A stretch of DNA of 64,000 nt, taken from assembly GCA_019244185.1 (NCBI GenBank), contig JAFATB010000010.1:57773-121772 (forward strand), in the 5' to 3' direction. The position numbers were made by a program, and so were the translations under genes. Origin of the DNA: Acidobacteriota bacterium. GTDB taxonomy: Bacteria; Acidobacteriota; Thermoanaerobaculia; Gp7-AA8. Shown one piece after another: positions 21,035 through 62,382 of this stretch; position 1 is the first letter of the stretch, and every line of letters starts with the position of its first letter. The notes beneath the pieces were generated by a model, which was given only the letters and a program-made list of their open reading frames with translations, did no database searches and was not told the origin of the DNA.

Positions 21035-21046
21035 TATATGAAGCAG

Positions 21047-21158
21047 AATGAAGAACGCAGAACGCAGAATGAAGAATTGAGAATGACACCCGCCCGGTCA
21101 CGCCGTTCCGCCGTTGTCCTTTTCGTCATTCTTCATTCTGCGTTCTGCGTTCTTCATT
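21047..21158. repeat. Heptamer-built inverted repeat (family A locus 1)
   Basis: Arm AATGAAGAACGCAGAACGCAGAATGAAGAAT (21047-21077) and exact reverse complement at 21128-21158. Confidence 0.9.
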
Positions 21159-22180
21159 CATCTGCTTCCGATTTCCAGCCCGCCCTCCCCAACTACACCT
21201 TCGACTTCCCCACCGACCACGGCGCGCACCCTGCCTTTCGCACGGAATGGTGGTACTACACGGGGCATCTGCGGACGGGGAACGGGCATCGCTACGGCTT
21301 CGAGCTCACGTTTTTTCGGGTCGGGATTTCGCGTGCGCCGCGGGAGACGGGCTGGGATCTGCGCGATGTGATGCCGGCGCATTTTGCGATCACGGATGTC
21401 GACGGGCGCGCGTTTCGCGCGTACGAGAAGATGAACCGCGCGTCGGCGTTCACGGCGGATGCGGCGGTGGGAAAGCTCGACGTGTTCAATGAAGGCTGGC
21501 GCGCGATTACGAACCCGGATGGCTCGTGGCGGATCGTGGCGTCGGCGGGACGCGATGCGATCGATCTCACGCTGCGCTCGCGCAAGGCGCCGGCGATTCA
21601 CGGCGAGAACGGGATCAGCATCAAGGCGCCGGTCGCGGGCTACGCGTCGCACTACTACTCGATGACGCGGCTCGAGGTCGCGGGCGTCGTGAACGGCGCG
21701 CGCTGCACGGGGCAGGCGTGGATGGATCACGAGTTCGGCTCGTCGGCGCTGCGCGAGAACCAGCAGGGCTGGGACTGGTTTTCGATCCAGCTCGACAGCG
21801 ACGCGGAGCTGATGCTGTACATCATCCGCCGCAAGGACGGCACGCCGGACGTGACGTCGTCGGGATCGCTGATCACCAGCGACGGGCGCGTGATTCCGCT
21901 GCGGCGCGAACAGTTGCGCGTCACCGCGCTGCGGCACTGGACCTCGAAGCGCAGCGGCGCAACGTATCCGATGGGGTGGCGCGTCGAGCTGCCGACGCTC
22001 AACGTCGCGCTCGTGCTCACGCCGCTGCTCGAGTCGCAGGAACTGCTCACCAGCGGCTCGACGCACGTGACGTACTGGGAAGGCGCGGTCGACGTCGCGG
22101 GCTCGTTCGACGGCGTGGCCGTGAGCGGCGAGGGCTACGTCGAGCTGACCGGCTACGACAAGGCGTTCCGCGCTCCGTAG
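21083..22180 (+). CDS. Carotenoid 1,2-hydratase (CrtC)/AttH lipocalin-like family secreted protein
   Basis: YTFDFPTDHGAHPAFRTEWWYYTGHL, GFELTFFR, YYSMTRLEVAG, WMDHEFGSS, WDWFSIQLD; start may alternatively be 21038. Confidence 0.87.
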   Translation: MTPARSRRSAVVLFVILHSAFCVLHSSASDFQPALPNYTFDFPTDHGAHPAFRTEWWYYTGHLRTGNGHRYGFELTFFRVGISRAPRETGWDLRDVMPAHFAITDVDGRAFRAYEKMNRASAFTADAAVGKLDVFNEGWRAITNPDGSWRIVASAGRDAIDLTLRSRKAPAIHGENGISIKAPVAGYASHYYSMTRLEVAGVVNGARCTGQAWMDHEFGSSALRENQQGWDWFSIQLDSDAELMLYIIRRKDGTPDVTSSGSLITSDGRVIPLRREQLRVTALRHWTSKRSGATYPMGWRVELPTLNVALVLTPLLESQELLTSGSTHVTYWEGAVDVAGSFDGVAVSGEGYVELTGYDKAFRAP

Positions 22181-22184
22181 CGCG

Positions 22185-24290
22185 TTACGCGTGCGCGGTG
22201 ACGCGGCGGATCTCGCGCACGAGCTGTTCGCGCGCGGACTTTCCCTTCTGCACGAAGCTCGTCACTTTCGTATGCAGCATCTGCCGATCCTCGGCACTCA
22301 ATTCTTTCGACGTCAGCACGAGGATCGGGATGTTCGCCGTGAGCGGGTTGTCCTTGAGCGAGTCGGCGACTTCGAAGCCGCTCATGCCCGGCATCATGAG
22401 GTCGAGGATGATGACGTCGGGCGACTGCTCCTGTGCCGCGCGCAGGCCTTCTTCGCCGCTCAGCGCCTTCGCGACGGCGAAGCCGAGCGCGGAGAGCTCC
22501 TCGTCGAGCAGCGTATGCACGGACGCGTCGTCGTCGATGACGAGGAGGCGCGGCTTCGCGCCGTCGCCGCGCGTGGTGATCGCGCGCAGGCGTTCGAGCA
22601 GGCGCTCGCGATCGACCGGCTTCACGAAGTAGTCGTCGGCGCCGAGGGCGATGCCGAGGTCGCGGTTGTCGACCATCGAGATGATCACGACGGGAATCGC
22701 GCATGTCGCGGCGTCGCCTTTGAGACGCTTCAGCACTTCCCAGCCGTCGAGTCCGGGCAGCACGAGGTCGAGCGTGACGGCGGCGGGCTGCGACTCGCGC
22801 GCGATGCGCAGCGCCTCGTCGCCATGATGCGCGCGGATCGAGAGGAAGCCGGCCGAGCCGAGCGCGGACGCGATGAGCTCGTACGCGTTCGCGTCGTCTT
22901 CGACCACGAGCACGCGATCGGTCCGCGTGGGCGGCAGCACTTCCGGCGCGCGCGTGACGACCGCCGCGCGCGAGCGCACGGGAAGCGCGATCGAGAACGT
23001 GCTGCCCGCGCCGAGGCGGCTGTCGACGCTCGCGCGTCCGCCCTGCAGCTCGACGAACTTCTTCACGAGCGCGAGGCCGAGTCCCGTGCCGCCGAACTCG
23101 CGGCGGGCGGTGCCGTCGACCTGGCGGAATTCCTCGAAGATCAGCGCGTGGTGTTTCGGGTCGATGCCGATCCCTTCGTCGCGCACGGAGAGCGTGATCC
23201 AACCGTCGGCGAATGCCGCGCGGATCGTGATCGGCTCGTCGGGCGGCGCGAACTTCACGGCGTTCGACAGCAGGTTGAAGAGTACCTGCTTGAACTTCGC
23301 GAGATCGGTCTCGATCTGCGGCAGGTCGGACGGGATGTCGACGACGAAGCGCGGCGTCGCGCGCGCCATGCCGCGCATCACGTGGCAGACGCTCTCGACG
23401 ACCGGCGCGATGGAGAAGAACTCGGGGTAGATCTCCATCTTGCCCGCTTCGATCTTCGAGAGGTCGAGGATGTCGTTGATGATGCCGAGGAGGTGTTGTC
23501 CCGACGCGTGGATGTGGCGGAGGAAGCCGAGGTGCTTCGCGTCGATGCGGGTGTCGAGGCGTTCGACGAGGATCTCGGAGAAACCGATGATCGAGTTCAT
23601 CGGCGTGCGCAGCTCGTGCGACATGTTCGCGAGGAACTGGCTCTTGAGACGATCGGCTTCCTGGCTGCGGCGGTTCGCGTCCGCGAGCTCGTGCGTGAGG
23701 CGCGTCAGCTCCTCGACCTTGCGGCTTTCTTCGAGCTCGAGCTGGCGGATACGCAGCCGCTTCTCCTGCAGGTTCGCCACGCCGACGAGGAAAAAGTACG
23801 AAGCGCCGAAGAGGAAGAGCATGCGCGCGACGGCGAGCAGCAGCACGTCGTTGACGAACGTGGCTTGTCCCATCGCGAACAGCAGGCCGACGTACGCGCA
23901 GGCGTTCACGAGCGACACGGCGTACGCGGCTTTCTTTCCGACGGCGAACGCGGCCACCGACGACGCGGCCATGTACCAGATGAACCACGGGCTGATGATG
24001 CCGCCCGTCGCGTAGACGCCGACCGTGACGAAGAAGACGTCGATGGCGAGCCAGAGCGGATTCAGATGCCGGCGGTCGACGCCGCGGCGGAAGAGGATCG
24101 ACAGCAGGACCGAACTGGCGCACGCGAGTCCCCACACGAGGAACGCCACTTCGAGCCGCAGCGGAAAGACGCCGAGCGCGCGGCCGGCGAGACTCGTGAG
24201 CAGGCCGAGCGTGTAGACGAGGAGGTGATTTCGTTGGACCGCGAGGTCGAAACGAAGCACGCTCGAAACGGCGGCCGGGCGATCGGACAT
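22185..24290 (-). CDS. Hybrid sensor histidine kinase with two C-terminal receiver domains
   Basis: FLANMSHELRTPMNSIIGFSEIL, GGTGLGLALVKKFVEL, DLVLPGLDGWEVL, DLMMPGMSGFEVA. Confidence 0.93.
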   Translation of the reverse strand: MSDRPAAVSSVLRFDLAVQRNHLLVYTLGLLTSLAGRALGVFPLRLEVAFLVWGLACASSVLLSILFRRGVDRRHLNPLWLAIDVFFVTVGVYATGGIISPWFIWYMAASSVAAFAVGKKAAYAVSLVNACAYVGLLFAMGQATFVNDVLLLAVARMLFLFGASYFFLVGVANLQEKRLRIRQLELEESRKVEELTRLTHELADANRRSQEADRLKSQFLANMSHELRTPMNSIIGFSEILVERLDTRIDAKHLGFLRHIHASGQHLLGIINDILDLSKIEAGKMEIYPEFFSIAPVVESVCHVMRGMARATPRFVVDIPSDLPQIETDLAKFKQVLFNLLSNAVKFAPPDEPITIRAAFADGWITLSVRDEGIGIDPKHHALIFEEFRQVDGTARREFGGTGLGLALVKKFVELQGGRASVDSRLGAGSTFSIALPVRSRAAVVTRAPEVLPPTRTDRVLVVEDDANAYELIASALGSAGFLSIRAHHGDEALRIARESQPAAVTLDLVLPGLDGWEVLKRLKGDAATCAIPVVIISMVDNRDLGIALGADDYFVKPVDRERLLERLRAITTRGDGAKPRLLVIDDDASVHTLLDEELSALGFAVAKALSGEEGLRAAQEQSPDVIILDLMMPGMSGFEVADSLKDNPLTANIPILVLTSKELSAEDRQMLHTKVTSFVQKGKSAREQLVREIRRVTAHA

Positions 24291-24328
24291 GAGACTGTGC
24301 GAGAAATTGTACGGGACGGCGCCGCGCG

Positions 24329-26863
24329 TTACTCGCTCTTGATGGCGCTGGCGATGTGAATGCCGCGCGCGAGCCGCGCGGGAACGAGGCCGGCGACCGC
24401 GGACGCGGCGAGCGTGACGCCGAGCGAGGCAGCGATGAGCGCCGCCGGGGTGTGGAAGTCGATCGTCCAGCCGAACGACTGTTTGTTGATCACGTAGATG
24501 AGGATCCACGACAGCGCGTAGCCCATCACGAGTCCCGCGGCGATCGACGCGACGCCGAGGAGCGACGACTCGAGGACGATCATCGTGCGCAGCTCGCGCG
24601 CGGAGAGGCCGCCGACGCGCAGCAGCGCGAGCTCGCGGCGGCGTTCCAGGATCAATGCGGAGAGCGTGTTCACGATGCCGAGCACGGCGACGATGATGGC
24701 CACGCCGAGGAGCGCGTACGTGATCAGAAAGGTCTGGTCGAAGATCTTCATCACCTCGCCGCGGATTTCGGCATTGGTGACGACGAAGGCGTGGTAGCGC
24801 GGCGCGAAGTCGCGTTCGAGCGCGCGGCGGGCGGCGGTGCGGTCGGCGCCCGGTTTCAGATAGACGACGATGGTGTTGATGGCGTCGTCGTGAAACGTGC
24901 GCACGAACAGCGCGCGGTCCATGACCACGACGCCGCGGTCGTTCGAGTAGTCGCGGTAGATGCCGGCGATCGGAAAGTGCGTCGCGCCGAGCACGAAGTC
25001 GTCGCCGAGGTTTTTGTCGAACTTCAGCGCGAAGCTCTCGGAGACGACGACGCCGTGTATGCGGATCGCGTTCGTCAGCGCGGCGCTCGCGGAGCGCGGC
25101 GCGATCATCGGAAGATCGCCGAACTTCGCCGCGACGTCGAAGTCGCCGCTGCCGACGGAGACGATCGTGTCGCGATAGAGCACGTCCTTGCCGCGCACGC
25201 GGTCGATCGCGGCGACGAACGGCAGATGCGCGGCGGCGTCCGCGGCGTTCGCGGGAAAGAGGGCGGTGCCGGCGTTGGTGAGGCCGCGCGCGGGGCGCAG
25301 CCAGAGATCGGAGCTGACGGTCTGGTCCACCCAGATGCGCACGGTCTCGCGGAAGCTGCCGACCATCAGCGCGACCGCGACCATCATGCCCGTCGCCAGC
25401 GCGAGCGCGGCACTGGCGATGGACGTGCGGCGCAGGGACGCGGGGAGCGACTTGGCGGCGAGCGTGCCGATGAGGCCGAACGCGCGCGCGAGGAGCGGCG
25501 CGAGGAGCCGCGACGTGGCGCGCACGATGGCCGGCGCGAGCAGCGAGAAGCCGGCCACGACGAGCAGCACCGCGACGTAGCCGGCAACGGCGATGCCGTC
25601 GATCGGCGGCAGGCGCGAGACGAGCGCGCCGGCGACGAAGCAGACGATCGCCAGCGCGACGAGCAGGCGCGGATGCGCCACGCGCTGCTGCAGCCCGGGA
25701 CGGATCATCGCGTTCGGCGGCACGCGCGCCGCTTCGAGCGCGGGCTGCAGCGCGGAGAGCAGCGAGAGCAGCATGCCGACCGCGACGCCGATCGCCACGA
25801 CGCCCGGCGTCAGCGCGATCGCATCGGGACGCGAGGTCACATACAGCGTGTTGATCGTGCGTCCCACCGCGGCGAGGATGCCGCTCGCGAGGAGGCTCCC
25901 GAGTGCGATCCCGAGCGCGGAGCCGAGCGCCCCGAAGAGCAGGCCTTCCGCGACGAACGCCGCGAAGATCTGTCGCGGCGCGGCGCCGAGCGTCTTCAGC
26001 ACGCCGACGTCGCGGCGGCGGCGCAGGATCGAGATGAGCACGGTGTTGTAGACGAGGAACATGCCGACGAGCAGCGCCACGCCGGCGAGCGCGAAGAGGT
26101 TCACGCGGAACGCGCGCAGCATCTTCTCGACGCGCTCGTTGCGCCGCGACGGCCGCTCGATGCGCGTGCCCGGCGGCAGCGCGAGGTCGCGCAGCGAGAC
26201 GCCGTCGGGCACGAGCAGGTCGACGCGCGAGACCTTGCCCGCGAGACCGAAGTTCCGCTGCGCGACGGCGATGTCACAGATGGCGATGCTGCCGTTGAAC
26301 GCGGTCGCGGGGCCCTGCGCCTCGAGCAGTCCGCGCACGACGAGCGTTCTGCGATGGCCGAGCAGATTGAGCGTGACCGGGCTGCCGATGCCGAGCCGAT
26401 GCTCGCGCGCGAACGGCGCGGGGAGGATCAGCGCGTCGGGCGCGAAGAGGCCGAGGTAGTTGCCGAGCGTTTCGTGCTCGTGGCCGGTCTCGATCTTCGC
26501 GTATCTGTAATCGCGGAAATGCAGGTCGCTGAAGAGATCGACGGCGAGCACGCGGATCGGCAGTTCCTCCGGCTCGAGCACGCCTTCGATGTCGATGACC
26601 GGCGCGAAGCGCACGCCGCGCGGCCACAGCGGCTGCAGGCGCAGCAGCACGCGCTCGTCGAGCGGCGCGACGTCGGGCACGAGCTGGTAATTGGCGCGGC
26701 CGGCGACGGCGTCGACCGACTCGCGGAACGCGCGCAGCGCGCTCTGATTTGCGAGCTGAATCGCGACGACGACCGCGACGCCGACGGCGATGCCGAGGAC
26801 GGTGAGCGAGGTGCGGATCTTCTCGCGCGCGATGGGGCGGAGGACGAGCGCGCGCAGGATCAT
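24329..26863 (-). CDS. ABC transporter permease (FtsX-like)
   Basis: Two FtsX-type blocks (VYNTVLISILRRRRDVGVLKTLGAAPRQIFAAF; VLGIVNTLSALILERRRELALLRVGGLS). Confidence 0.92.
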   Translation of the reverse strand: MILRALVLRPIAREKIRTSLTVLGIAVGVAVVVAIQLANQSALRAFRESVDAVAGRANYQLVPDVAPLDERVLLRLQPLWPRGVRFAPVIDIEGVLEPEELPIRVLAVDLFSDLHFRDYRYAKIETGHEHETLGNYLGLFAPDALILPAPFAREHRLGIGSPVTLNLLGHRRTLVVRGLLEAQGPATAFNGSIAICDIAVAQRNFGLAGKVSRVDLLVPDGVSLRDLALPPGTRIERPSRRNERVEKMLRAFRVNLFALAGVALLVGMFLVYNTVLISILRRRRDVGVLKTLGAAPRQIFAAFVAEGLLFGALGSALGIALGSLLASGILAAVGRTINTLYVTSRPDAIALTPGVVAIGVAVGMLLSLLSALQPALEAARVPPNAMIRPGLQQRVAHPRLLVALAIVCFVAGALVSRLPPIDGIAVAGYVAVLLVVAGFSLLAPAIVRATSRLLAPLLARAFGLIGTLAAKSLPASLRRTSIASAALALATGMMVAVALMVGSFRETVRIWVDQTVSSDLWLRPARGLTNAGTALFPANAADAAAHLPFVAAIDRVRGKDVLYRDTIVSVGSGDFDVAAKFGDLPMIAPRSASAALTNAIRIHGVVVSESFALKFDKNLGDDFVLGATHFPIAGIYRDYSNDRGVVVMDRALFVRTFHDDAINTIVVYLKPGADRTAARRALERDFAPRYHAFVVTNAEIRGEVMKIFDQTFLITYALLGVAIIVAVLGIVNTLSALILERRRELALLRVGGLSARELRTMIVLESSLLGVASIAAGLVMGYALSWILIYVINKQSFGWTIDFHTPAALIAASLGVTLAASAVAGLVPARLARGIHIASAIKSE

Positions 26864-27534
26864 CGTCGTGCGCGTCCGTCCGCGACTTCGATGATGTAGT
26901 CGCCGTACGAGGCCGCGCGCTCGGAGTGCGTGGCCATCACGATCGTCGGACGCAGCGACGCATGCAGCTCGCGCAGCAGCTCGAGGATGACGAGGCCGTT
27001 CTTCGAGTCGAGGTTGCCGGTCGGCTCGTCGGCGAGGAGCAGCGGCGGGCGGTGCACGATCGCGCGGCCGATGGCGACGCGCTGCATCTCGCCGCCGGAG
27101 AGCTCGTTCGGAAAGTGACGCGCGCGTGGCTCGAGGCCGACGCGCGCGAGCACTTCGCGCACGCGTTCCGCGATCTCGCGTTTCGGGCGGCGCGCGAGCG
27201 ACAAGGGAAACGCGACATTCTCGAAGACGTTGAGCGTCGGGATGAGATTGAAGAACTGGAAGACGAAGCCGATCGACGTGCGGCGCAGCTCCGTGAGCCG
27301 TGCCTCGTCGAGCGCGGAGGTTTCGACGTCGCCGAGAAACACCGCGCCGCGCGTGGGGCGATCGACGGCGCCGATGAGCTGCAGCAGCGTCGACTTGCCG
27401 CTGCCCGACGCGCCGACGAGCACCGCGAAGTCGCCTGACGCGATGTCGAGCGAGACGTCGTCGAGCACGTGCACGGCGCCCGACTCGTCGGACGGCGCGT
27501 AGTCGTGGCTGACGGACTCGAGACGGACGCGCAT
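26860..27534 (-). CDS. ABC transporter ATP-binding protein (LolD/MacB type)
   Basis: Walker [24 protein letters not shown] signature, [16 protein letters not shown] overlap with permease. Confidence 0.95.
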
Positions 27535-27581
27535 CGCGCCGCGATTGTACGAGCACGCGGCACGAGACTCGGCGTCGGACG

Positions 27582-29615: not shown

Positions 29616-29741
29616 GCTGCCGAGTCTCGCGCCGTCCCGCGCCTCCGCGCGCGAACAAATCGTGACAGTGCGGGGCGAGGTGGCAACCGTTCTGCACTCT
29701 CCGCACAGTGATATTGTCCGCGTCGAAACAGGAGGACCCCA

Positions 29742-30026: not shown

Positions 30027-30029
30027 CGT

Positions 30030-30329: not shown

Positions 30330-30349
30330 CGCGTGGCATAATCGGCGCG

Positions 30350-32190: not shown

Positions 32191-32250
32191 CGAGCGCCGA
32201 TTCTTCTACGTTGCGGCCGGCGCCGCAACCTCGTACTCTCGCGTCGTTCC

Positions 32251-33126: not shown

Positions 33127-33135
33127 AATCGCGGC

Positions 33136-43520: not shown

Positions 43521-43560
43521 GCGAAGGCAGAAGGCAGAGGGCAGAAGGCAGAAGTCAGAT
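43521..43560. repeat. Heptamer tandem array (family A locus 6, single arm)
   Basis: GCGAAG GCAGAAG GCAGAGG GCAGAAG GCAGAAG TCAGAT; includes stop codon of the downstream minus-strand gene. Confidence 0.75.
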
Positions 43561-44568
43561 CGGGACGATCACCAGTCCGTCGCGCCGCTCGTAACCTGCG
43601 TCGTGTGGGATCGCGGCGTCTTCGCGGCAGATCATCACATCGCTCAGCTCCACCGGTCCGGCCACGTTGACGCCGTGGGCGACGATGCAGCGCTCGAGGC
43701 GCACGCTGCCGCCGATCGCGCAGTCGTCCCAGACGATCGAGTCGACGAGCTCTCCGCGCACGTTGCTGCGCGCGCCGATGACGGAGCGCGTGCGCGAGCC
43801 CGGCATCGCGGCGGTGGCGTCGACGAGCGAGTCGTCGCGCACGAGCGAGCCCTGCGGCGGCGTGACGTCGCCCGCAACGATCGCGGCGAGCAGCGCGTGC
43901 GACGCTGTGAGGTAGCGCTGCGGCGTGCCGATGTCGAACCACAGCCCGTCGTTCACGACCGCGGCCATGGTCTCGTTCGCGAGCTGCGGCTGATAGACCT
44001 CGTCGACGATGCCGGAGAAGTCTTTGTCCGGCAGGTAGCGGAAGATGCGCGCGCTGATGCAGTGCGAGCCGGAGAACATGAGCGCCTCGCCGGTGCCTTG
44101 GCCGAAGCCGGTGACGCGGCCGTGGTCGTTCCAGACGGCGGTGAAGCGATCGTTCTCCGGCGGATGGCGCAGCGTGAGCGCGGCCAGCGCGTCGACGGCG
44201 CGTCGCGCGTCGCGCAGCTCGTCGTAACGCGGGAACTGCACGGTGTCGCCGTTGACGAGGAAAAAGTCTTCGTCGTTTTCGAGCAGCGGACGCACGCGGC
44301 GAATGCCCCCGCCGGTGCCGAGGATCTCGTGCTCGAAGGAAAAGTGCAGCGTGGCGTGGCGGCTGTAGCGCTCGTGCAGATACTGCTCGAGCACGCCCGG
44401 CAGATGATGCAGGTTGACGATGAGGTCGCGCACGCCGGCGGCGAGGAACGACTCCACGGCCCAGCCGATGAGCGGACGATTGCAGAGCGGCACCATCGGC
44501 TTCGGCAGCGTGTAGGTGATGGGGCGGAGCCGCGTGCCGTAGCCCGCGGCGAGGATCATGGCTTTCAT
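43555..44568 (-). CDS. Sugar nucleotidyltransferase (NDP-sugar pyrophosphorylase-like)
   Basis: MKAMILAAGYGTRLRPITYTLPKPMVPLCNRPLI; C-term hexapeptide-like region. Confidence 0.92.
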   Translation of the reverse strand: MKAMILAAGYGTRLRPITYTLPKPMVPLCNRPLIGWAVESFLAAGVRDLIVNLHHLPGVLEQYLHERYSRHATLHFSFEHEILGTGGGIRRVRPLLENDEDFFLVNGDTVQFPRYDELRDARRAVDALAALTLRHPPENDRFTAVWNDHGRVTGFGQGTGEALMFSGSHCISARIFRYLPDKDFSGIVDEVYQPQLANETMAAVVNDGLWFDIGTPQRYLTASHALLAAIVAGDVTPPQGSLVRDDSLVDATAAMPGSRTRSVIGARSNVRGELVDSIVWDDCAIGGSVRLERCIVAHGVNVAGPVELSDVMICREDAAIPHDAGYERRDGLVIVPI

Positions 44569-45131
44569 GCGGAGGGGAGCTGCTCCGGCGGGAAGACCAT
44601 GTTCTCGGGCAGGTCGGCGCGCGTGCGGCGGTGCTGGCGATAGAGCTCCGCGTACGACTGGCGGATGCCGGAGTCCATGTTCATCCCGAGTTGTTCGGCG
44701 ACACCGCGGATGACGTCGAGCGCGCCTTCGATCTCGAAGTAGTCGCCGATCGGCGTGCGGTCGAGCACGACTTCGACGTCGTGGACGCGCCACACTTCGC
44801 GGAACTTCTGGTAGCGGAAGGTCGGCTTGAAGCCGAGCGCGTCGAAGAGCTGGATGGCGAGCTCGAAGCTCTCCACGCCGGTCTGCACTTCCTCGCGCGA
44901 CTTCACGCCGCCTTCGAACGCCATCGGACCTTTGAACGTGGCCAGCGCGTAGCGCCCGAACTTGCGCACGCGCAGCATCGAGCCTTTCGTGCGCAGCTCG
45001 CCGCGCCGGTCGAGCACGATGTTGTCTTCGAACGTCTCGGCGTAGAGGCGCTGCGCGCCGAGCTCGTGCAGTTTGCGCACGAGCGCGTTGCGGTCCTTGA
45101 GGGCGAACTTGATCTCGATTTCCTGAGCCAC
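44565..45131 (-). CDS. CYTH-domain protein (class IV adenylate cyclase/thiamine-triphosphatase-like)
   Basis: MAQEIEIKFAL (ExExK), LRTKGSMLRVRKFG, YFEIEG. Confidence 0.88.
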   Translation of the reverse strand: MAQEIEIKFALKDRNALVRKLHELGAQRLYAETFEDNIVLDRRGELRTKGSMLRVRKFGRYALATFKGPMAFEGGVKSREEVQTGVESFELAIQLFDALGFKPTFRYQKFREVWRVHDVEVVLDRTPIGDYFEIEGALDVIRGVAEQLGMNMDSGIRQSYAELYRQHRRTRADLPENMVFPPEQLPSA

Positions 45132-46320: not shown

Positions 46321-46406
46321 GCGAACGATGGGCGATGAACGATGAACGATGAACCCGGCGTCACGAGAACGGCATCGTTCATCGTTCCGCGTTCATCGTT
46401 CTTCGC
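46321..46406. repeat. Heptamer-built inverted repeat between gap and pgk (family A locus 4)
   Basis: Left GCGAAC GATGGGC GATGAAC GATGAAC GATGAAC; right arm reverse complement GCGAAGAAC GATGAAC GCGGAAC GATGAAC GATG. Confidence 0.8.
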
Positions 46407-49157: not shown

Positions 49158-49310
49158 GGAGCGCCTCCGGCGGGCCGGCGCGGCCGGCAGCGCTAAGGGC
49201 TTAGCCAGTACGCACGTGCGGCTGCCGTCAACGACGTTAACCGCGACCGCACGTGCGTCTAGGCTAGGCCCTTAGCGCAGCCGGCCGCGCCGGCCCGCCG
49301 GAGGCGCTCC
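49158..49310. repeat. Nested large palindrome (family B copies 3 and 4)
   Basis: Outer arms 49158-49206 and 49262-49310 nearly perfect complements; inner perfect 12-bp arms 49210-49221/49247-49258. Confidence 0.9.
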
Positions 49311-49326
49311 GGTCAATCTCCCTCGG

Positions 49327-50700
49327 CTACGCCACCGGCAGCACGTTGCCGTCGATGTCGAGCTCGTGGAGGGGGAACTGCAGGTTGGCGAGGGGGTCGC
49401 GGATCGCGGACGCGTTGCCGACGACGACGATCACGACGCGATCGGGGTCGAGATATTTTTCGGCGACGCGTTGGATTTCGTCCTTCGTCACCGCGGCGAT
49501 GTTTTCGCGGAAGCGGTCGAAGTAATCCTCGGGGAGGCCGTAGAGCTCCATGTCGAGGAGGCGGCCGGCGACGTCGTCGGCGGTTTGCACGGTCGCGGGG
49601 AAGACGCCCATCAGGTAATTCTTTGTGTCCTCGAGCTCGTGCGGTTCCACGTCGCCGGTGCGGATGCGGCGCAGTTCGGCGAGCATTTCGGAGACGGACT
49701 CGCGCGTCACTTCGTTGCGCACGGGCGCGGCGATGACGAATGGGCCGGTTTGGCGGCGGAAGGCGAACTGCGAGCGCGCGCCGTAGGTGTAGCCATGGCG
49801 TTCGCGCAGATTGAGATTGATGCGCGAGTTGAACACGCCGCCGAAGATCGCGTTCATCACGGACAGCGGGAAATAGTCCTCGCACGAGCGCGGCACGCCG
49901 TGGTGGCCGACGCGAATCTCCGACTGGACGGCTTGCGGACGATCGATGAGATAGATGCGGCTCGCGTCGATGGACTGCAGCGAGACCGTGGGGCGCGGCG
50001 GTTCGGGGCCGGGCTGCCAGTCGCCGAGGACGCGGGTGACGAGGGCGAGCGCATCGTCGGGAGTGACGTCGCCGCAGACGACGACGGAGCTGTTGTTCGG
50101 CAGGTAATGCTGCGCGTGGAACTGGCGCACGTCGTCGATGGTGATGCGCGCGACGCTGTCCGCGTTGCCGATGACGGAGTTCCCGTACGCGCCGGTGCCG
50201 TAGAGCAGGCTGGCGAAGCGCTTGCCGGCGATCGCGGCGGGCTCGTTGCGTTGCTGGAGGATCTCGTTGAGGCGTTCCGCGCGCACGCGTTCGAGTCCGT
50301 CTTCGGGGAGCGTTGCGCGCGCGGCGACGTCGCCGAGGATCGCGAAGGAGGGCTCGGTGTTACGGCTGAGGACATCGAGGGAGAGATACGTCGCGTCCCA
50401 GTCGGCGCCGGTGCCGAGCGCGCCGCCGAGGAGGCCGACGTCTTCGGCGAGTTGGATCGCGTCGCGGGAGCCGGCGCCTTCGTCGAGCAGATCGGCGGTG
50501 ATGGCGGCGAGTCCGGCGAGGCGTACGTTGTCGTGATCGGCGCCGGAGCGGACGAGCGTGCGCATGGCCACGAGTGGCGCGTTGTGATTTTCGGCGATGA
50601 GCACGCGCAGGCCGTTCGGCAGCGTCGCGCGCGTGATGTGCGGGAAGTGGTAGGGCCGCGGCGCGGTGGGCGGCGGCGCGGTGGTGCGATCGATCGGCAT
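49327..50700 (-). CDS. M16-family peptidase-like protein lacking HxxEH (non-catalytic subunit-like)
   Basis: LPNGLRVLIAENHNAPLVAMRTLVRSGADHD; FGGVFNSRINLNLRERHGYTYGARS; no HxxEH. Confidence 0.87.
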   Translation of the reverse strand: MPIDRTTAPPPTAPRPYHFPHITRATLPNGLRVLIAENHNAPLVAMRTLVRSGADHDNVRLAGLAAITADLLDEGAGSRDAIQLAEDVGLLGGALGTGADWDATYLSLDVLSRNTEPSFAILGDVAARATLPEDGLERVRAERLNEILQQRNEPAAIAGKRFASLLYGTGAYGNSVIGNADSVARITIDDVRQFHAQHYLPNNSSVVVCGDVTPDDALALVTRVLGDWQPGPEPPRPTVSLQSIDASRIYLIDRPQAVQSEIRVGHHGVPRSCEDYFPLSVMNAIFGGVFNSRINLNLRERHGYTYGARSQFAFRRQTGPFVIAAPVRNEVTRESVSEMLAELRRIRTGDVEPHELEDTKNYLMGVFPATVQTADDVAGRLLDMELYGLPEDYFDRFRENIAAVTKDEIQRVAEKYLDPDRVVIVVVGNASAIRDPLANLQFPLHELDIDGNVLPVA

Positions 50701-51953
50701 CAGTTCTCCGGGACGAAGAGGCTCGTCACGCGATTCTCGGGGATGAGGTACTTGCGGGCGACGTGCGCGAGGTTGTCGGCGGTCGCGGCGCGGTACGGTT
50801 CGAGCCAGCGGTCGATGAGCGACGGATCGCCGAAGTACGTCGACATCATGCCGAGCAGATCGGCGCGGCCGTCGAACGTCTCCAGCTGATGCGCGTGCTC
50901 CACCTCGGCGCGGTTCTTCGCGCGCGTCAGCTCGTCTTCGGTGATGCCGTCGATGGCCACGCGCGCGATCTCCGCGTCGACGGCGGCTTCGATCTGCTCG
51001 ATGGCGACGCCTTCACGTGCGGTGGCTTGCAGCAGCAGCATGCCGGTCGACTCCGTCGGAAGGACGTACGTCGTCACGTCCTGCGCGATCTGTTGTTCGT
51101 GCACGAGCACGCGATCGAGGCGGCTCGCTTTGTCGGACGCGAGGATCGTCGTCAGCAGGTCGGCGTGAATCCAGTCCGCCTCGCCCATCTTCGGCAGGTG
51201 GTAGAGGCGGTACATGCGCGGCAGCTGGATGTTCGTCGGGAACGTCTCGCGGAGCTCGTGGCCCGCGGGCTTGCGCGTGAGCGTGAACTGCGGGAACGAG
51301 CCGCCGGGCTGGATGTCGGCGAAGTACTGCTCGATGAGGCGCTTCGCCTCGTCGGGCGCGAAGTCGCCGACGACGGTGAGCGTCGCGTTGTCGGGGCGGT
51401 ACCAGGTGGCGAAGAACGCGCGGATGTCGTCGAGCGAGGCGGCGCCGAGGTCCTCCATCGAGCCGATGGTCGGCCAGTGGTAGGAGTAGTCGGAGTCGTA
51501 GGCGAGGTTCAGCAGGCGCTCGAACGCGGTGCCGTACGGCACGTTGTCGTAGCGCTGGCGGCGCTCTTCCTTCACGACCTCGCGCTGGATGTCGAGCTTC
51601 TCCTGCGTGAGCGCGGGGAGGAAGAAGCCCATGCGATCGGACTCGAGCCAAAGCCCGAGCGCGAGGTAGTTCGACGGGAGCGTCTCGAAGTAATTCGTGC
51701 GATCGAAGAAGGTCGTGCCGTTCAGCACGCCGCCGACGGACTGCACGTAGCGAAAGTGCTCGTTGTTGCCGATGTGCTCGGAGCCGGAGAAGAGCATGTG
51801 CTCGAAGAGATGCGCGAAGCCGGTGCGCCCCGGCCGCTCGTTCTTCGAGCCGACGTGGTACCAGAGGTTGATCGCCACCAGCGGCGCGGAGTGATCTTCA
51901 TTGAGCACGACGCGCAGGCCGTTGGGAAGGCGGTAGGTGTCGAGGGGAAGCAT
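50700..51953 (-). CDS. M16-family zinc peptidase (catalytic)
   Basis: LPNGLRVVLNEDHSAPLVAINLWYHVGSKNERPGRTGFAHLFEHMLFSGSEH (HxxEH). Confidence 0.93.
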   Translation of the reverse strand: MLPLDTYRLPNGLRVVLNEDHSAPLVAINLWYHVGSKNERPGRTGFAHLFEHMLFSGSEHIGNNEHFRYVQSVGGVLNGTTFFDRTNYFETLPSNYLALGLWLESDRMGFFLPALTQEKLDIQREVVKEERRQRYDNVPYGTAFERLLNLAYDSDYSYHWPTIGSMEDLGAASLDDIRAFFATWYRPDNATLTVVGDFAPDEAKRLIEQYFADIQPGGSFPQFTLTRKPAGHELRETFPTNIQLPRMYRLYHLPKMGEADWIHADLLTTILASDKASRLDRVLVHEQQIAQDVTTYVLPTESTGMLLLQATAREGVAIEQIEAAVDAEIARVAIDGITEDELTRAKNRAEVEHAHQLETFDGRADLLGMMSTYFGDPSLIDRWLEPYRAATADNLAHVARKYLIPENRVTSLFVPEN

Positions 51954-51984
51954 GGGAGGAGGGTTTTATCACGGAGAAACGGTG

Positions 51985-52082
51985 AATGAAGAACGCAGAA
52001 CGCAGAATGAAGAATGAAGAAAGGAGCACCGAGCGCGGGTCCCCTTTCTCAATTCTTCATTCTGCGTTCTGCGTTCTTCATT
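51985..52082. repeat. Heptamer-built inverted repeat (family A locus 2)
   Basis: 31-bp arm identical to locus 1 at 51985-52015; reverse complement 52052-52082. Confidence 0.92.
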
Positions 52083-52105
52083 CATGCTTTATCCTTCCCG
52101 GGCAC

Positions 52106-52747: not shown

Positions 52748-52782
52748 GTTCGCGGACCGAGACGAAGCGTAGAACGTTGATT

Positions 52783-52853
52783 GATGATCGATGAACGATG
52801 AGCGATGAACCGGGGCCGAGTGCCCGTTCATCGTTCATCGTCCATCGCTCATC
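52783..52853. repeat. Heptamer-built inverted repeat (family A locus 5)
   Basis: GATGATC GATGAAC GATGAGC GATGAAC / reverse complement 52826-52853, 25/28 match, 15-nt loop. Confidence 0.85.
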
Positions 52854-52895
52854 CTTCCCGTTCGCCGCCTCCTTTCGGCCGAAAAGGAGGAGCAG

Positions 52896-56413: not shown

Positions 56414-56437
56414 GGCCGGGGACGTTATCACCATGCG

Positions 56438-57748
56438 GTGGAACTTGCCGCTGCCGGCGATCGTGCCGTCGTCGTCGCGTTGGGCGACGCGACCGCGGAC
56501 GAACTGCACGCGGCGGCGGCGCGCGTGCGCGAGGTCGCGGGCGTCGTCGCCGTGATTCCGGGGCATTCGTCGCTGTATGTGATCGGCGGCGCGCGCGACG
56601 CCATCCGTGAGGCGCTGCAGTCACCGCAAGCAGCGCACGACGCAACGGCCGCAACGCGCCGCGTACGCGTCTCGTTCGATGGTCAAGACCTTGACGAGTT
56701 CCTCGCGCGGACGTCGCAGGCGCGCGCGTCATTCCTCGCGCGCGTCGACGGCCTGCAGCTCCGCGCGCGTTACCTCGGCTTCCGCGCCGGCTTCGCGTAT
56801 CTCGACGGCTGGCCCGCGGAATGGGCGATGCCGCGCCGTCCGACGTCGCGTCCGGTGCCGCGCGGCTCGTTCGCGATCGGCGGCGCCGTGGCCGGCTTCT
56901 ATCCGATCGACACGCCGGGCGGCTGGAATCTCCTCGGCCGCACGGACGCCGAGCTCGCGCACGCAATCGCGCCGGGCGACGTGCTGGTCATCGAAGTGTC
57001 GGACGAGCCGCTCGCGCCGCCGCCGCTGCCGAAGCCGCCACGACTGGCGCTCGACGACGCGGAGATTCTCGCCGCGCCGCTGGCGACGCTCGTCACGCCG
57101 CATCCCGACTGGTCGCGCGTCCTGCGCGGCACCGCGCCCGGCGGCGCGTTCGATCGGCAGGCCGCCGAACTCGCGAATGCGGCCGTCGGCAACGACGCGA
57201 ACGCGCCTCTCCTTGAATGCGCGATGAGCGGTCCGCGACTGCGGTTCATCCGCGAGCGCGTCGTCGCGTTCTGCGGTCCGCGTCTGGACGTGCGGGTGCA
57301 GCGCGTGCGCGCCGGCGAAGAGCTCGCGATCGGACGCATCGAAGGCGGCTTGCGCGGCTACCTCGCGATCGGCGCGCGCGCAGTGCACGTCGACGCGCCG
57401 TCACGCGACGACGACCGCCGCATCATTCGCGCGATGCGCGGCCCGCACGACGTCGGCCTCGCGGAAGTCGCATGCGAAGTCACGCCGCAGCTCGATCGCG
57501 TCGGCGTGCGTCTGCGTCCATTGCAACGCATCGCCGCGGACATCCCCGCGGACCTGCGCTCCCTCGGCATGCAATGCGGCACCGTGCAACTGCATCCCGA
57601 CGGCAGCCTCGTGGCGATGGGGCCGGAGCATCCGGTCACCGGCGGCTATCTGCAGCCGATGACCGTGCTCTCGGGCGAGACGTGGAAGCTCGCCCAGCTC
57701 GTGCCGGGCGAGCGCGTCACGTTGGTCGCTCAGCCGCCGTACGAGTAG
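56438..57748 (+). CDS. Fused 5-oxoprolinase subunits B/C-like (KipI-KipA/allophanate hydrolase-type carboxyltransferase)
   Basis: GDRAVVVALGD..., YLGFRAGFAYLDGWP, FAIGGAVAGFYPIDTPGGWNLLGRT, then PxpC-like GGLRGYLAIGA...VALEVT-like region and MTVLSGETWKLAQL; GTG start. Confidence 0.82.
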   Translation: MELAAAGDRAVVVALGDATADELHAAAARVREVAGVVAVIPGHSSLYVIGGARDAIREALQSPQAAHDATAATRRVRVSFDGQDLDEFLARTSQARASFLARVDGLQLRARYLGFRAGFAYLDGWPAEWAMPRRPTSRPVPRGSFAIGGAVAGFYPIDTPGGWNLLGRTDAELAHAIAPGDVLVIEVSDEPLAPPPLPKPPRLALDDAEILAAPLATLVTPHPDWSRVLRGTAPGGAFDRQAAELANAAVGNDANAPLLECAMSGPRLRFIRERVVAFCGPRLDVRVQRVRAGEELAIGRIEGGLRGYLAIGARAVHVDAPSRDDDRRIIRAMRGPHDVGLAEVACEVTPQLDRVGVRLRPLQRIAADIPADLRSLGMQCGTVQLHPDGSLVAMGPEHPVTGGYLQPMTVLSGETWKLAQLVPGERVTLVAQPPYE

Positions 57749-58791
57749 CCGGCGCGCGCGTTCACGCGCAGCTTCGGCTGGTTGCGCACGGAGACGCTGA
57801 CCTTCTGGAAGCCGGCGTCGCTCGCGCCGTGCTTCGTCCTGTAACTAAGTAAATAGTAGCCGTTGTTCGTATTGTCGATCTGCGTCAGCGCCGGCTCGAA
57901 GCTCGTGTTGAACTCGAAGTAGCGGCCGCCGGTCGCCTGCGCGAACTCGTTGAGACGCTGGTGAATGGCAGGCGTCAGGTCGACGTCGCGCTGCAACTGG
58001 ATCGGATAGACCGACACGTTCGCGGCGTTGAGCGACTGGAGCGCGGGATCGAGAAACGGGCTGCGGCTCACGGCCATGCCCGCCTTCACCATCTCGGTGG
58101 GATCGAGCACGCCCGGCGAGAAGAGCACGAGGTTCTTGCGCGCGCGGATCGGGCGCAGCGCATCGCCGAGCAGATCGAGCGCCTCGTACACGGTGCCGCT
58201 GTGGTTGACCATCGAGCCGGAGTCGATCGTGCGCAGGATCGACGGCGCGTCCGTGCTGCCGCCCGACTTCAGGCCCGGGCCGAAGCGCAGCGCCTCGTCG
58301 AGCGCGCGCTGGAGCTGCTTCTTGTCGCTGGTGAAGTCGCTGTAGATCTTGAGCCGTCCGTCGTGGCCGGCGATGGCGACGCGATCGGTGGCGAGCATGC
58401 GCTTGTCGATGAAGCGTCGCGCGGCGTCGCGCGCGCGGTTGAGCTCATCGAACAGCACGCCGGGATCGTTCGGCTTGTCGAAGAAGAAGACGAAGTAGCG
58501 GTCCTCGCGCACGCGTTCGACCTTGAACGGCGCGTTCTCCTCGCGGGCATCGAGCAGGCGGCGGTTCGTGAAGTAGTCGACGGATTCGAGCGGCTGCTCG
58601 ACGCCGTTTTCCTTCACCACGAAATCGTCCTTGCCGAGGCCGAGGATCTGGTGGCCCTGGGCATCGGTGACGATTGCGTCGAGGAGCACGACGTTGACGT
58701 CGACTTTCTCCTGATACGCGGGCTGCTGCGTTTGCGCTGCAAGCGGGAGGACGAGTGCGAGAAGCGCCGGAAGAACTGCTGAGCGTCTCAT
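57730..58791 (-). CDS. VWFA-related Acidobacterial-type domain protein, secreted
   Basis: KVDVNVVLLDAIVTDAQGHQILGLGKDDFVVKENGVEQPLESVDYF; RKNLVLFSPG; YYLLSYRTKH. Confidence 0.88.
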   Translation of the reverse strand: MRRSAVLPALLALVLPLAAQTQQPAYQEKVDVNVVLLDAIVTDAQGHQILGLGKDDFVVKENGVEQPLESVDYFTNRRLLDAREENAPFKVERVREDRYFVFFFDKPNDPGVLFDELNRARDAARRFIDKRMLATDRVAIAGHDGRLKIYSDFTSDKKQLQRALDEALRFGPGLKSGGSTDAPSILRTIDSGSMVNHSGTVYEALDLLGDALRPIRARKNLVLFSPGVLDPTEMVKAGMAVSRSPFLDPALQSLNAANVSVYPIQLQRDVDLTPAIHQRLNEFAQATGGRYFEFNTSFEPALTQIDNTNNGYYLLSYRTKHGASDAGFQKVSVSVRNQPKLRVNARAGYSYGG

Positions 58792-58958
58792 GAGAAAACC
58801 TCCGCATCTGCCAACGGCACCCGCGCGGGACCGATTCCGCTGTAACAGAAGGTTGCGCGACCCGGAATGACTTCCCGCCACGTCCCGTTTGACCGACCGG
58901 CGCGAAATCACTAGAATCCGCGCCTCCTCGGATGAGCCTCCCGCTCGTCCATCCATTT

Positions 58959-59036
58959 CGGGGCATAGCTCAGCCTGGTCAGAGCGCACGGTTCGGGACC
59001 GTGAGGTCGGAGGTTCAAATCCTCTTGCCCCGACCA
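58959..59036 (+). tRNA. tRNA-Pro (anticodon CGG)
   Basis: Cloverleaf CGGGGCA...CACGG-TTCGGGA-CCGTG...GGTTCAAATCC...TGCCCCG-A-CCA; CCA encoded. Confidence 0.95.
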
Positions 59037-59044
59037 ATTTCCCT

Positions 59045-59578
59045 TTACCGCTTCCACGGGATGTCTTCGATGCCCGCCCGCGCGTTCGCGAAGCGTGCGG
59101 CGACGAAGAGGTAATCCGAGAGCCGGTTGAGAAACGCGATGGTCGAGATCGTGGCCGGCGTGTCGTCATGCAACGCGACGACGCAGCGCTCCGCGCGGCG
59201 GCAGACGGTGCGCGCGACGTGGAGCTGCGCGGACGCCGCGGCGCCGCCGGGCAGGATGAACGACTTGAGCGGCGCGAGCTCGCTCTCCATTTCGTCGATG
59301 GCGCGTTCGAGATCGGCGATGCGCTGCGCGTCGACGCCGGGAAAGCGGCTCGTGCCGGGCGAGGCGAGGTGCGCGCCGGCCTCGAAGAGATCGTGCTGCA
59401 CGTCGTGGAGCACGGCATCGACTTCGGCGGGCAGCGGCGTCGTGCGGGCGGCGCCGAGGACGGAGTTCAGCTCGTCGACGGTGCCGTAGGCCTCGATGCG
59501 CGCGTCGTTCTTCGCGACGCGCGTGCCGCCGAAGAGCGACGTCTCGCCGAAGTCGCCGGTGCGGGTATAGATCTTCAC
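59045..59578 (-). CDS. Cob(I)alamin adenosyltransferase, PduO type
   Basis: MKIYTRTGDFGETSLFGGTRVAKNDARIEAYGTVDELNS; LNRLSDYLFVAAR. Confidence 0.95.
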   Translation of the reverse strand: MKIYTRTGDFGETSLFGGTRVAKNDARIEAYGTVDELNSVLGAARTTPLPAEVDAVLHDVQHDLFEAGAHLASPGTSRFPGVDAQRIADLERAIDEMESELAPLKSFILPGGAAASAQLHVARTVCRRAERCVVALHDDTPATISTIAFLNRLSDYLFVAARFANARAGIEDIPWKR

Positions 59579-61545
59579 GCTTCCGCTTCGAGCTGCCGGA
59601 TGCGCTCCTTGACCACGATCTCCGCGAGGTCGGGGATGATCTCCCAGGCGATGTTGCGGACGACCTGATCGGACATCAGCTCGACGACGCGCCGCGCGAT
59701 GCGGTCGATCTGTTCGTCGCTGAGGTCGGAGCCGCGCGCGGCGATCGGGAGCGCGGGCGTTTCGGACGCGAACGCGGAAGACGAGGACGCGGCGGGCTGC
59801 GGCGTTTCGTCATGCGTGGCCGCGGCCGGCTCGGGTGCGGACTCGGAGAGCGCGAACGGCGTCTCCTGCTGCGGCTCGGGCGCCGACTCGGCGAACGGCG
59901 CGGCGGCTTCGGGGGCGGATGCGGTGTCGAACGCAGGCGCTTCCGGAGTTTCGAAGGAAGAGGCCGTGTCGAACGCGGGCGCGTCGGAGGATTCGAAGGC
60001 GGAGGGTTCGGAGGTGCTGAAGGCCGGAGAGTCGGAGCTGCCGAATGCCAAGGCTTCGGAGCTGCCGAACGCCGGAGAGTCGGACGTATCGAAGGCCGGA
60101 GCCTCGGAATTGCCGAAGGCCGGAGCTTCCGAAGTCCCGAACGCCGGAGTCTCGGAGTTCCCGAACGCCGGAGCCTCGGAGTTCCCGAATGCCGGAGCTC
60201 CGCCCCAGGCCGGCGCTGCCGCGGCGGGCGTGTCGTCGTCCCATGGCGCGGGCTCGGGCTGCGCGTTCGACGACGACGCCATCTGCTGCAGCTGATCGAA
60301 GGTCATCTTCGGGAACGCGCGCGTCTCGCCGCCGAACGCGGGCGCGTCGGACGACGCATCGTTGAGCGCGAACGGCGACTCGGCCGGCTCGTCCCACGGC
60401 GAGGCCGCGGGGGGCTCGGGCGCGGGCGTCGAAGGCGGAGTCGATGCAGACGGCGAAGCGGGCGCCATCTGCTGCATCTCCTCGAAGCTCATCTTCGGGA
60501 AGGCGCGCGTTTCGCCGGCGTAGAGCGGCGCCTCGAACGGCGAGGACGGCGTTGCCGCCGGCGGCTGCGGCTCGGCCGCGGTTTCGGCGGGCTCGGGCTC
60601 GCCCCACGGCGACGCGTCGGCGGGAGCGGGCGTTGCGGACGGCGTCGCCGCCTGCGGCGACGCGAGCTCCTGCATCTGATCGAAGTTCAGCCGCGGGAAC
60701 GCGCGCGTCTCGCTGTTGAACTCCTCGGCCGGCGTGGGCGCCGCGAAGGGCGCGTCGATATCGGCGGCGGGCGTCGCGGGCGACGGCGCGGCCGCGGGGA
60801 AGTCGTCGAACGACATCTTCGTGAACGCGCGCGTGGCGCCGCTGTCGCCGGCATCGGTCGCGGGCTCGTCCCACGCCGACGTCGCCGGCTCCGGCGTCGC
60901 AGGCGGGAAGTCGTCGAAGCTCATCTTCGGGAACGCGCGCGTCTCACCGCCGAACGCGGCCGGCTCCGGCGCGTCGAACGGCAGCTCGGTCGTCGACTGG
61001 CGCGTGCCGGCGGCGCCGAAGATGTCGGCGTCGTTCGGCGTGAAGCCCTGGTCGTCATCGGCCGTCGCGAAACGTCCGCTCGGCGTCGTGAACGGAGACT
61101 CCGGTGCGGCGGGCGCCTCTTCCATCCACGGCGACGGCTCGGGTTCGGGCTCCGGCGCGGCGGCGGCATTCTGCGCGGCCTGCGCGATCAGCTCTTCGAC
61201 CTTGTGGATGAGGCTCTGCGACTCGAACGGCTTGGTGACGACGGCGTCGCAGCCGGCTTTCTCGGCGCGGTCGGGATCGAATGGCTCGAAGGTGCCGGTG
61301 AGGAGCACGACCGGGATGTTGCGGAAGTCGGGATGCGACTTGATGTACTCGCAGACCTCGTAGCCGTTCTTCTCCGGCATGATGATGTCGGAGAGGATGA
61401 TGTCGGGGCGCATCTCGGCCAGTTTCTGCACGGCCCGCGCTCCGTTGTTCACGGCGGTGACCTCGTAGTCGCCGTCCGAGAACGTCAGCTCGACCACTTT
61501 TTGAATGGTGATACTGTCATCCGCCAGCAGGATTTTCTTCGGCAT
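59575..61545 (-). CDS. Response regulator receiver domain with long repetitive disordered linker and conserved C-terminal helix
   Basis: KKILLADDSITIQKVVELTF...LSDIIMPEKNGYEV...VVTKPFES; five RAFPKMSFDD-type motifs; (A/S)PAFGxSE octapeptide repeats; C-term AWEIIPDLAEIVVKERIRQLE. Confidence 0.88.
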   Translation of the reverse strand: MPKKILLADDSITIQKVVELTFSDGDYEVTAVNNGARAVQKLAEMRPDIILSDIIMPEKNGYEVCEYIKSHPDFRNIPVVLLTGTFEPFDPDRAEKAGCDAVVTKPFESQSLIHKVEELIAQAAQNAAAAPEPEPEPSPWMEEAPAAPESPFTTPSGRFATADDDQGFTPNDADIFGAAGTRQSTTELPFDAPEPAAFGGETRAFPKMSFDDFPPATPEPATSAWDEPATDAGDSGATRAFTKMSFDDFPAAAPSPATPAADIDAPFAAPTPAEEFNSETRAFPRLNFDQMQELASPQAATPSATPAPADASPWGEPEPAETAAEPQPPAATPSSPFEAPLYAGETRAFPKMSFEEMQQMAPASPSASTPPSTPAPEPPAASPWDEPAESPFALNDASSDAPAFGGETRAFPKMTFDQLQQMASSSNAQPEPAPWDDDTPAAAAPAWGGAPAFGNSEAPAFGNSETPAFGTSEAPAFGNSEAPAFDTSDSPAFGSSEALAFGSSDSPAFSTSEPSAFESSDAPAFDTASSFETPEAPAFDTASAPEAAAPFAESAPEPQQETPFALSESAPEPAAATHDETPQPAASSSSAFASETPALPIAARGSDLSDEQIDRIARRVVELMSDQVVRNIAWEIIPDLAEIVVKERIRQLEAEA

Positions 61546-61607
61546 CGATCGGCTCCGTTGATTTCGGAGCAACCTACCACGGCAGTGGAGACCGGACAAG
61601 CGTACCG

Positions 61608-62297
61608 ATGACACGGCAGTTCCTCATTTACGGCCATCGCGGCAGTCCGAAACGCTTTCACGAGAATACGATCGCCGGCTTCGAGGAAACGCTGCGCGCC
61701 GGCGCCGACGGCTTCGAAACCGACCTGCGCCTGCTCTTCGATCGCACCGCCGTGCTCTACCACGACGACGAGCACGATGACGACGCGATCGAGTCGCTGA
61801 CCGCCACGCAGCTCGCCGAGCGCGGCGCGATGGTCGAGCGCCTCGCCGATCTCTCCCGCTTCGCCGGCCGCGCGCAGATGATCCTCGAGGTCAAACGCGC
61901 GAAATGGGAGGACATCCTCCTCAGCCACATTGCGGAATGGCCGAACATCGTCCTTGCGTCGTTCGATCATTCCATCGTGCCGGAGCTCCGCAGACGCGGC
62001 GCGACCTTCCCGATGGGCATCACCTTCCACGGCTACCTCGTCGACGTCGCCGGCTACGCCGCGAGCCTCGGCGCCACCTGGTGCTTCCCCAACTACCACT
62101 ACGTCGACCGCGCCATGGTCGACTCGCTCCACGCCCGCGGCATCAAGGTCGTGCCGTGGACCGCGAACCGGCGGCGCGAATGGGACGCATTGTGGGAGGT
62201 GGGGTGTGATGGGGTGATTACGGATGAGGCGGAGGAGGCGGTGGGGTGGAGGAGTCAAAAGATGAATGAAGAATGCAGAACGCAGAAGGAAGAATGA
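61608..62297 (+). CDS. Glycerophosphodiester phosphodiesterase
   Basis: IYGHRGSPKRFHENTIAGFEETLRAGADGFETDLRLLFD; KVVPWTANRRREWDALWEVGCDGVITDEAE. Confidence 0.93.
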   Translation: MTRQFLIYGHRGSPKRFHENTIAGFEETLRAGADGFETDLRLLFDRTAVLYHDDEHDDDAIESLTATQLAERGAMVERLADLSRFAGRAQMILEVKRAKWEDILLSHIAEWPNIVLASFDHSIVPELRRRGATFPMGITFHGYLVDVAGYAASLGATWCFPNYHYVDRAMVDSLHARGIKVVPWTANRRREWDALWEVGCDGVITDEAEEAVGWRSQKMNEECRTQKEE

Positions 62298-62382
62298 AGA
62301 AAGGGGACGCGGCCGCCGGAACGGCGGCCCACCACAATTCTTCATTCTTCCTTCTGCGTTCTGCATTCTTCATTCATCTTTT
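62257..62382. repeat. Heptamer-built inverted repeat (family A locus 3)
   Basis: 45-bp perfect arms 62257-62301 / 62338-62382; loop holds a nested GGCCGCC-GGAAC-GGCGGCC hairpin. Confidence 0.93.

Follow-up and report, generated by a model that had tools for sequence, protein, structure and literature searches.

Several short inverted repeats built from 7-bp units lie between protein genes in a 64,000-nucleotide (nt) stretch of an Acidobacteriota genome (contig JAFATB010000010.1, positions 57,773 to 121,772; the whole stretch is hereafter called the window). What are these hairpins, and what has spread them? An earlier, sequence-only reading had noted six such loci, all of which exist where it placed them. 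We consider it likely that the hairpins are gene-less copies of a small mobile or selfish element which resembles the intervening sequences (IVSs) of ribosomal RNA (rRNA) genes and encodes a four-helix-bundle (4HB) protein, and that their arms are probably read by this protein. The descent and dispersal of the elements are well supported; we infer the recognition of the arrays by the 4HB protein and its action in trans.

Inverted arrays around a four-helix-bundle gene

The genome to which the window belongs (G000; 5.30 Mb, 98.9% complete) holds a copy of the element that contains a gene. At this locus (L026/L031, G000:C2:178.7–179.2 kb), arms of GMAGAAY units stand about 370 nt apart and enclose an open reading frame (ORF) of 120 amino acids, which is the sole PF05635 match in the genome (73.1 bits, cut-off 33.8) and also matches TIGR02436 (89.4 bits, cut-off 24). 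The gene-bearing copy is on another contig, and the first reading therefore missed the flanked gene. The 4HB ORF stands alone between the arms, with no transposase gene. The AlphaFold model of the protein (pLDDT 93) has four helices arranged as a bundle, and its best matches in the PDB are 2RLD (TMq 0.83) and 2GSC, followed by Avd (4DWL) and complexes of diversity-generating retroelements (DGRs), with 8UB7 among the matches. Both 2RLD and 2GSC are crystal entries with five chains each; set beside arms of four to five units, this invites the speculation that one array unit is bound per protomer. Moreover, the left inner edge of the gene-bearing copy, TTGAGAA, is common to 13 of 26 sampled gene-less copies, which is consistent with the latter being its internal deletion derivatives.

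Inverted arrays flank 56 of 60 PF05635 loci of the class, with a median array score of 27 compared with 9 for mismatched flanks, and 16 of 20 gammaproteobacterial loci. In a scan of GTDB genomes, 64 of 80 PF05635 loci scored at least 15 (period 7 in 43, period 8 in 14). The loci cover at least eleven phyla, assigned by hand: Bacteroidota, Planctomycetota, Nitrospirota, Acidobacteriota, Chloroflexota, Pseudomonadota, Desulfobacterota, Bacillota, Cyanobacteriota, Verrucomicrobiota and Cloacimonadota. Taken together, 73 of 89 PF05635 loci from relatives and GTDB have flanking inverted arrays; in the strongest control, which took same-size intervals offset elsewhere in the same loci, 1 of 178 has them (Fisher p 2e-48). 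None of 400 random intervals in this genome and that of its sister species (G001) reached the score threshold. The array unit is 7 bp and sometimes 8 bp long, and its sequence varies by lineage.

Copies of such elements lie between nrdB and nrdA on a Nostoc edaphicum plasmid and between cas6 and cas4, and 4HB genes on Calothrix and Nostoc plasmids have inverted heptamer arms. At a gammaproteobacterial locus (L275), GGGAATC arms flank a frameshifted, decayed 4HB gene resembling XCC0516, the Xanthomonas campestris protein of entry 2GSC. From the translated flanks we take its neighbours to be accB and accC. The gammaproteobacterial class sample gave one such Xanthomonas-type, GGGAATC-flanked 4HB gene and the viral contigs none, and tblastn gave no 4HB match in 50,697 phage records.

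Hairpins of the window and their dispersal

We scanned the window de novo for arrays with periods 5–10. Period 7 was the sole one that gave inverted array pairs, at exactly five loci (21045–21159, 46326–46394, 51984–52083, 52778–52848 and 62264–62375), with two unit types, GMAGAAY (21043, 51981, 62256) and GATGAAC (46321, 52776). Five loci are thus inverted, as the sequence-only reading had stated, with GATGAAC arms that are imperfect and shorter than it claimed. The elements, together with two sites that are empty here and occupied in the sister species, are as follows:

21043..21162, no strand: gene-less element, GMAGAAY type (array scan; RNA fold z -12.9)
43521..43560, plus strand: single GGCAGAA array without inverted partner (array scan)
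44560..44570, no strand: unoccupied site (site A); G001 has an octamer hairpin of about 78 bp (GGTTGCGC-type)
46321..46406, no strand: gene-less element, GATGAAC type (array scan, fold, sister comparison)
50697..50703, no strand: unoccupied site (site D); G001 has a GGCAGAA hairpin of about 100 bp exactly there
51981..52086, no strand: gene-less element, GMAGAAY type (array scan; RNA fold z -14.7)
52776..52853, no strand: gene-less element, GATGAAC type (array scan, fold, sister comparison)
62256..62383, no strand: gene-less element, GMAGAAY type (array scan; RNA fold z -19.6)

The arms of the first element (21046–21077 and 21128–21159, 32 nt) are 100% complementary; those of the last one pair at 46 of 46 positions, and its loop holds an additional GC hairpin. 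The arm at 21046 is identical to that at 51984, 30 kb away, as noticed earlier, and a 38-nt stretch is 100% complementary between window loci at this distance. As single strands, the hairpins of the window fold 6–20 standard deviations better than dinucleotide shuffles. The Rfam search of the window returned one tRNA only and no family for the hairpins. There is no rRNA match in the window, where the elements sit between protein genes.

In the source genome the pattern of three units, GNWGAANGNWGAANGNWGAANG, has 162 forward and 161 reverse matches (323 in all), while the reversed pattern used as control has 0 and 0, which bears out the suggestion of a genome-wide family of heptamer-built inverted repeats rather than an artefact. 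The first 100 listed matches make up 26 loci, from which we extrapolate about 85 loci. The same pattern is present in 17 of 18 genomes of the family and almost absent outside it. In the sampled copies the arms are about 4–5 units long (median 4.6), and unit numbers vary between arms and loci. Arms in the source genome are as similar across loci (0.911) as within a locus (0.911; p 0.46). We therefore rejected compensatory change or homogenisation of the arms at each locus; the equality speaks against selection for pairing within individual loci and would fit a protein that recognises the units. The two unit types had been attributed to a common unit-copying mechanism. A better reading is that they are separate lineages within a single class of element, each with a gene-bearing form of its own in relatives; GATGAAC arms, for example, flank 4HB genes there (L100, L120).

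As for the neighbouring genes, the element at 21043 lies between divergent genes for a cNMP-binding/TPR protein (minus) and a CrtC lipocalin (plus), and that at 51981 between the genes for an M16 peptidase and a deoxynucleoside kinase, which are divergent as well. The element at 46321 is immediately upstream of the phosphoglycerate kinase gene (minus), and that at 52776 separates the codirectional deoxynucleoside kinase gene and panB. The single array at 43521, a probable remnant, has a histidine kinase gene on one side and a nucleotidyltransferase gene on the other. Some arms are read as coding sequence. The GDPD ORF upstream of the 62256 element enters its left arm (62258–62297), which supplies the C-terminal residues and the stop. 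In the CrtC/lipocalin gene, the probable start codon and a signal-peptide-like N-terminus (MTPARSRRSAVVLFVILHSAFCVLHSSAS) come from the loop and right arm of the first element (21083–21169), which suggests that the repeat was co-opted for secretion. In L086 and L116, translation of the arms can extend the 4HB protein itself at its N- or C-terminus (MKAEGRRQNAE..., ...HSTFNIQH).

Two other repeats were seen in the window. At 49158–49310 a GC-rich palindrome with 76-nt arms and a 1-nt spacer lies between convergent genes; a 96% identical copy occurs at L068:186–348, so this is another dispersed palindrome family. A large minus-strand ORF (9932–15910) contains, at 10460–12876, six direct repeats, each about 390 nt long, which probably encode tandemly repeated domains of a surface protein.

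Spread of the elements and competing explanations

The sister species G001 has about 80% DNA identity to the source genome, and the comparison of orthologous intergenic sites that the first reading had called for shows presence and absence at sites A, B and D. At 46321 (site B) the GATGAAC element is present here and the G001 site is empty; sites A and D are empty here and occupied there, site D being the TGATG in which the stop and start of two minus-strand genes overlap. At three further sites both genomes have an element, each of a different unit type: GMAGAAY here and GGCAGAA in G001 at 51985 (site E) and 62257 (site G), and GATGAAC here and GTGCTGA in G001 at 52783 (site F). Judged by its downstream flank, the gene-bearing copy sits at one shared site in the two genomes. 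The two 4HB proteins are 66% identical, and the units of both arms are shifted alike, from GAAY in G000 to GAAG in G001, by either a concerted unit change or replacement by another element. We also observed that several G001 elements (L206–L209, L213, L215, L216) lie inside an outer palindrome, cgcacgg...ccgtgcg, as if they had landed in, or fused with, a different family of repeats.

Unit and protein are linked. In 51 of 53 cases in the class set, a gene and its nearest relative by protein sequence have units of equal length, and units become less similar as protein distance grows (Mantel r -0.26, against -0.24 for the lowest of 300 shuffles). Among 100 loci, unit similarity at 60% protein identity or above is 0.745 against 0.526 expected from shuffles, and the tree has 12 changes of unit length, where 19 are expected (minimum 15). 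The arms and the gene are thereby shown to travel as one, with units that change rapidly. The dispersed arrays also follow the resident genes. Of 20 genomes tested, nine have triple AGTRCTG units and 11 have none. These nine are the genomes with an AGTGCTG-type or same-clade 4HB gene among the inspected genes, and the exact-unit match is imperfect in G003, G007 and G016. The main carriers of octamer arrays are G001 and G009, both of which have octamer-flanked 4HB genes.

A complete element would accordingly be composed of about 4–5 tandem 7- or 8-bp units, one PF05635/TIGR02436 gene of 110–130 amino acids, and the array inverted, and the gene-less copies would be non-autonomous derivatives, similar to miniature inverted-repeat transposable elements (MITEs), that keep the arms. 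Homology suggests that the 4HB protein, which has the IVP/Avd fold, is oligomeric and associates with nucleic acids; it probably recognises the units and acts in trans on gene-less copies, while a lineage-specific unit would let several elements coexist in one genome. As a guess, cutting and joining could be done by a host function, or the hairpin could serve as a single-strand intermediate at replication forks.

Several observations weigh against a mobile element addressed by its 4HB protein. The unit–protein effect is weak at 50–60% identity and gone below (100 loci), and the association could reflect mere joint descent of arms and gene; the linkage alone is no proof of binding. The sole 4HB gene detected in G003 has GAGGACT arms, yet that genome has 41 AGTRCTG matches. 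G001 holds GMAGAAY-like copies and has no exact-unit 4HB gene among those inspected, which in relatives are a subset of the 4HB genes. In Nodularia the unit is found solely at the 4HB gene's own arms, with no amplified arrays. Finally, no transposition event, target-site duplication or catalytic residue has been demonstrated; the three occupied/empty pairs checked for a target-site duplication have much diverged flanks and repetitive termini.

Could the arrays instead serve the host, as binding sites or RNA hairpins with a regulatory, termination or nucleoid role, with the 4HB protein as regulator and their spread incidental? The position of copies at gene junctions, their strong folding, the use of arms as coding sequence (such as a signal-peptide-like start) and the sites occupied in both species would suit such a role. 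It would not account for the many unrelated units that coexist in one family, for 4HB gene counts of 1 to 25 per genome and species-specific sites, or for flanked genes without a consistent class or orientation, and the equal arm similarity within and across loci reveals no pairing constraint at each locus. We regard this explanation as unlikely.

The driver of spread could also be foreign to the element. Repeats resembling repetitive extragenic palindromes and bacterial interspersed mosaic elements (REP/BIME) might be moved by a REP-associated tyrosine transposase (RAYT, of the Y1 type) or copied by a reverse transcriptase, with the 4HB protein as an accessory, and there is some ground for this in the Y1 transposases of 17 of 18 relatives and in the fold shared with Avd, which in DGRs works with a reverse transcriptase. 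The first reading had proposed a search for such co-occurring enzymes. Family-model searches of the source genome gave 0 Y1_Tnp (PF01797) and 0 RVT_1 (PF00078) matches, in spite of its completeness and some 85 loci, and RVT_1 is absent from 12 of 18 family genomes. A resident RAYT or reverse transcriptase was therefore rejected as the driver, and we hold this explanation to be improbable. Since most relatives have Y1 proteins, past or borrowed Y1 activity is possible; the strand-transfer activity that dispersal requires was not found in our analysis. At one locus of a relative (L098, G011:C54:63.7–70.5 kb), two 4HB genes with different 7-bp arrays have a Y1-transposase match between them (C54:67915–68157).

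It is very doubtful that the hairpins are relics of rRNA IVSs, copied out of 23S rRNA genes, processed by RNase III and no longer mobile. The ORF family and the terminal inverted-repeat stem are the same (PMC4990558), but none of 20 sampled 4HB loci has an rRNA match, and the copies lie at protein-gene junctions and differ between sister species. Neutral simple-sequence expansion, with heptamers made by slippage and inverted pairs by hairpin-templated copying without a dedicated protein, fits the variable unit numbers and the ready expansion of tandem repeats but deserves hardly any credence, as it leaves unexplained the restriction to periods 7 and 8, the association with one gene family (73/89 against 1/178) and the unit and inner edges that dispersed copies share with the gene-bearing copy.

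Relation to known systems

Returning to the mobile 4HB element, we note that PF05635/TIGR02436 proteins are very widespread, while IVP was described in 2024 as functionally uncharacterised (PMC11270868). A conserved, coevolving DNA context provides the first concrete hypothesis for the target of the 4HB protein. Should the elements spread without a transposase or reverse transcriptase, the mechanism would be a new one, and if the protein reads 7-bp arrays that change with the lineage, it offers a natural series of specificity variants. The open-access literature that we covered (subscription papers and preprints lie outside it) gave no statement of a link between 4HB genes and arrays. Such a link would join the separate puzzles of rRNA IVSs, Xanthomonas GGGAATC repeats and possibly the short tandemly repeated repetitive (STRR) sequences of cyanobacteria.

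Heptamer repeats have been reported several times. In X. campestris, GGGAATC repeats form 70 closely spaced, oppositely oriented pairs, and these as well as the GGGGA(C/T)T repeats of Nostoc were read as G-quadruplex-forming, with no mobile-element association (PMC4692102). Both are intergenic tandem heptamers like the present arrays. That study draws no link to 4HB genes, whereas GGGAATC arms flank the decayed 4HB gene at L275, and the published Xanthomonas repeats appear to belong to the present element class. So, probably, do the cyanobacterial heptanucleotide repeats, which we likened by description. The STRRs of Calothrix are tandem heptamers like the 4HB arms on Calothrix and Nostoc plasmids, but are defined as tandem repeats only, unlike the inverted arms here. 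The sequence-only reading rightly named them as a precedent; its remark that they are not inverted does not hold in general, given the plasmid copies inverted around 4HB genes. The TAACTGA repeats of Beggiatoaceae are likewise abundant intergenic heptamer arrays and differ in being almost all direct, with one inverted (PMC4679880).

Among mobile systems, MITEs and REP/BIME with RAYT are likewise short inverted repeats that stem from a gene-bearing copy and are scattered through the genome, but the gene-bearing form here has no transposase and the source genome no RAYT. The 4HB protein shares the fold of Avd (4DWL, 8UB7), which PF05635 is known to resemble (PMC10053308), but neither a reverse transcriptase nor a template/variable repeat pair as in DGRs is present here. 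The 23S rRNA IVSs of Leptospira and Coxiella likewise have one PF05635 (S23/IVP) ORF within terminal inverted repeats. That of Coxiella, with its S23 ORF and 28-bp terminal stem, was called selfish (PMC4990558), and a 1993 proposal, as cited there, held that the IVS ORF encodes a component needed for mobility. The present elements differ in lying outside rRNA genes, in arms made of lineage-specific 7- or 8-bp arrays and in their many dispersed gene-less copies. Membership among IVSs, MITEs, REP–RAYT systems or DGRs thus fails on one defining feature each. It is possible, and we propose it only tentatively, that pan-bacterial elements exist in which 4HB (IVP/S23) proteins are array-recognising mobility proteins without a transposase or reverse transcriptase of their own, the 7- or 8-bp units are lineage addresses, and the Xanthomonas and cyanobacterial heptamers and rRNA IVSs are members or derivatives. 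The element works most like an IVS with MITE-like offspring, that is, as an IVS-like class outside rRNA.

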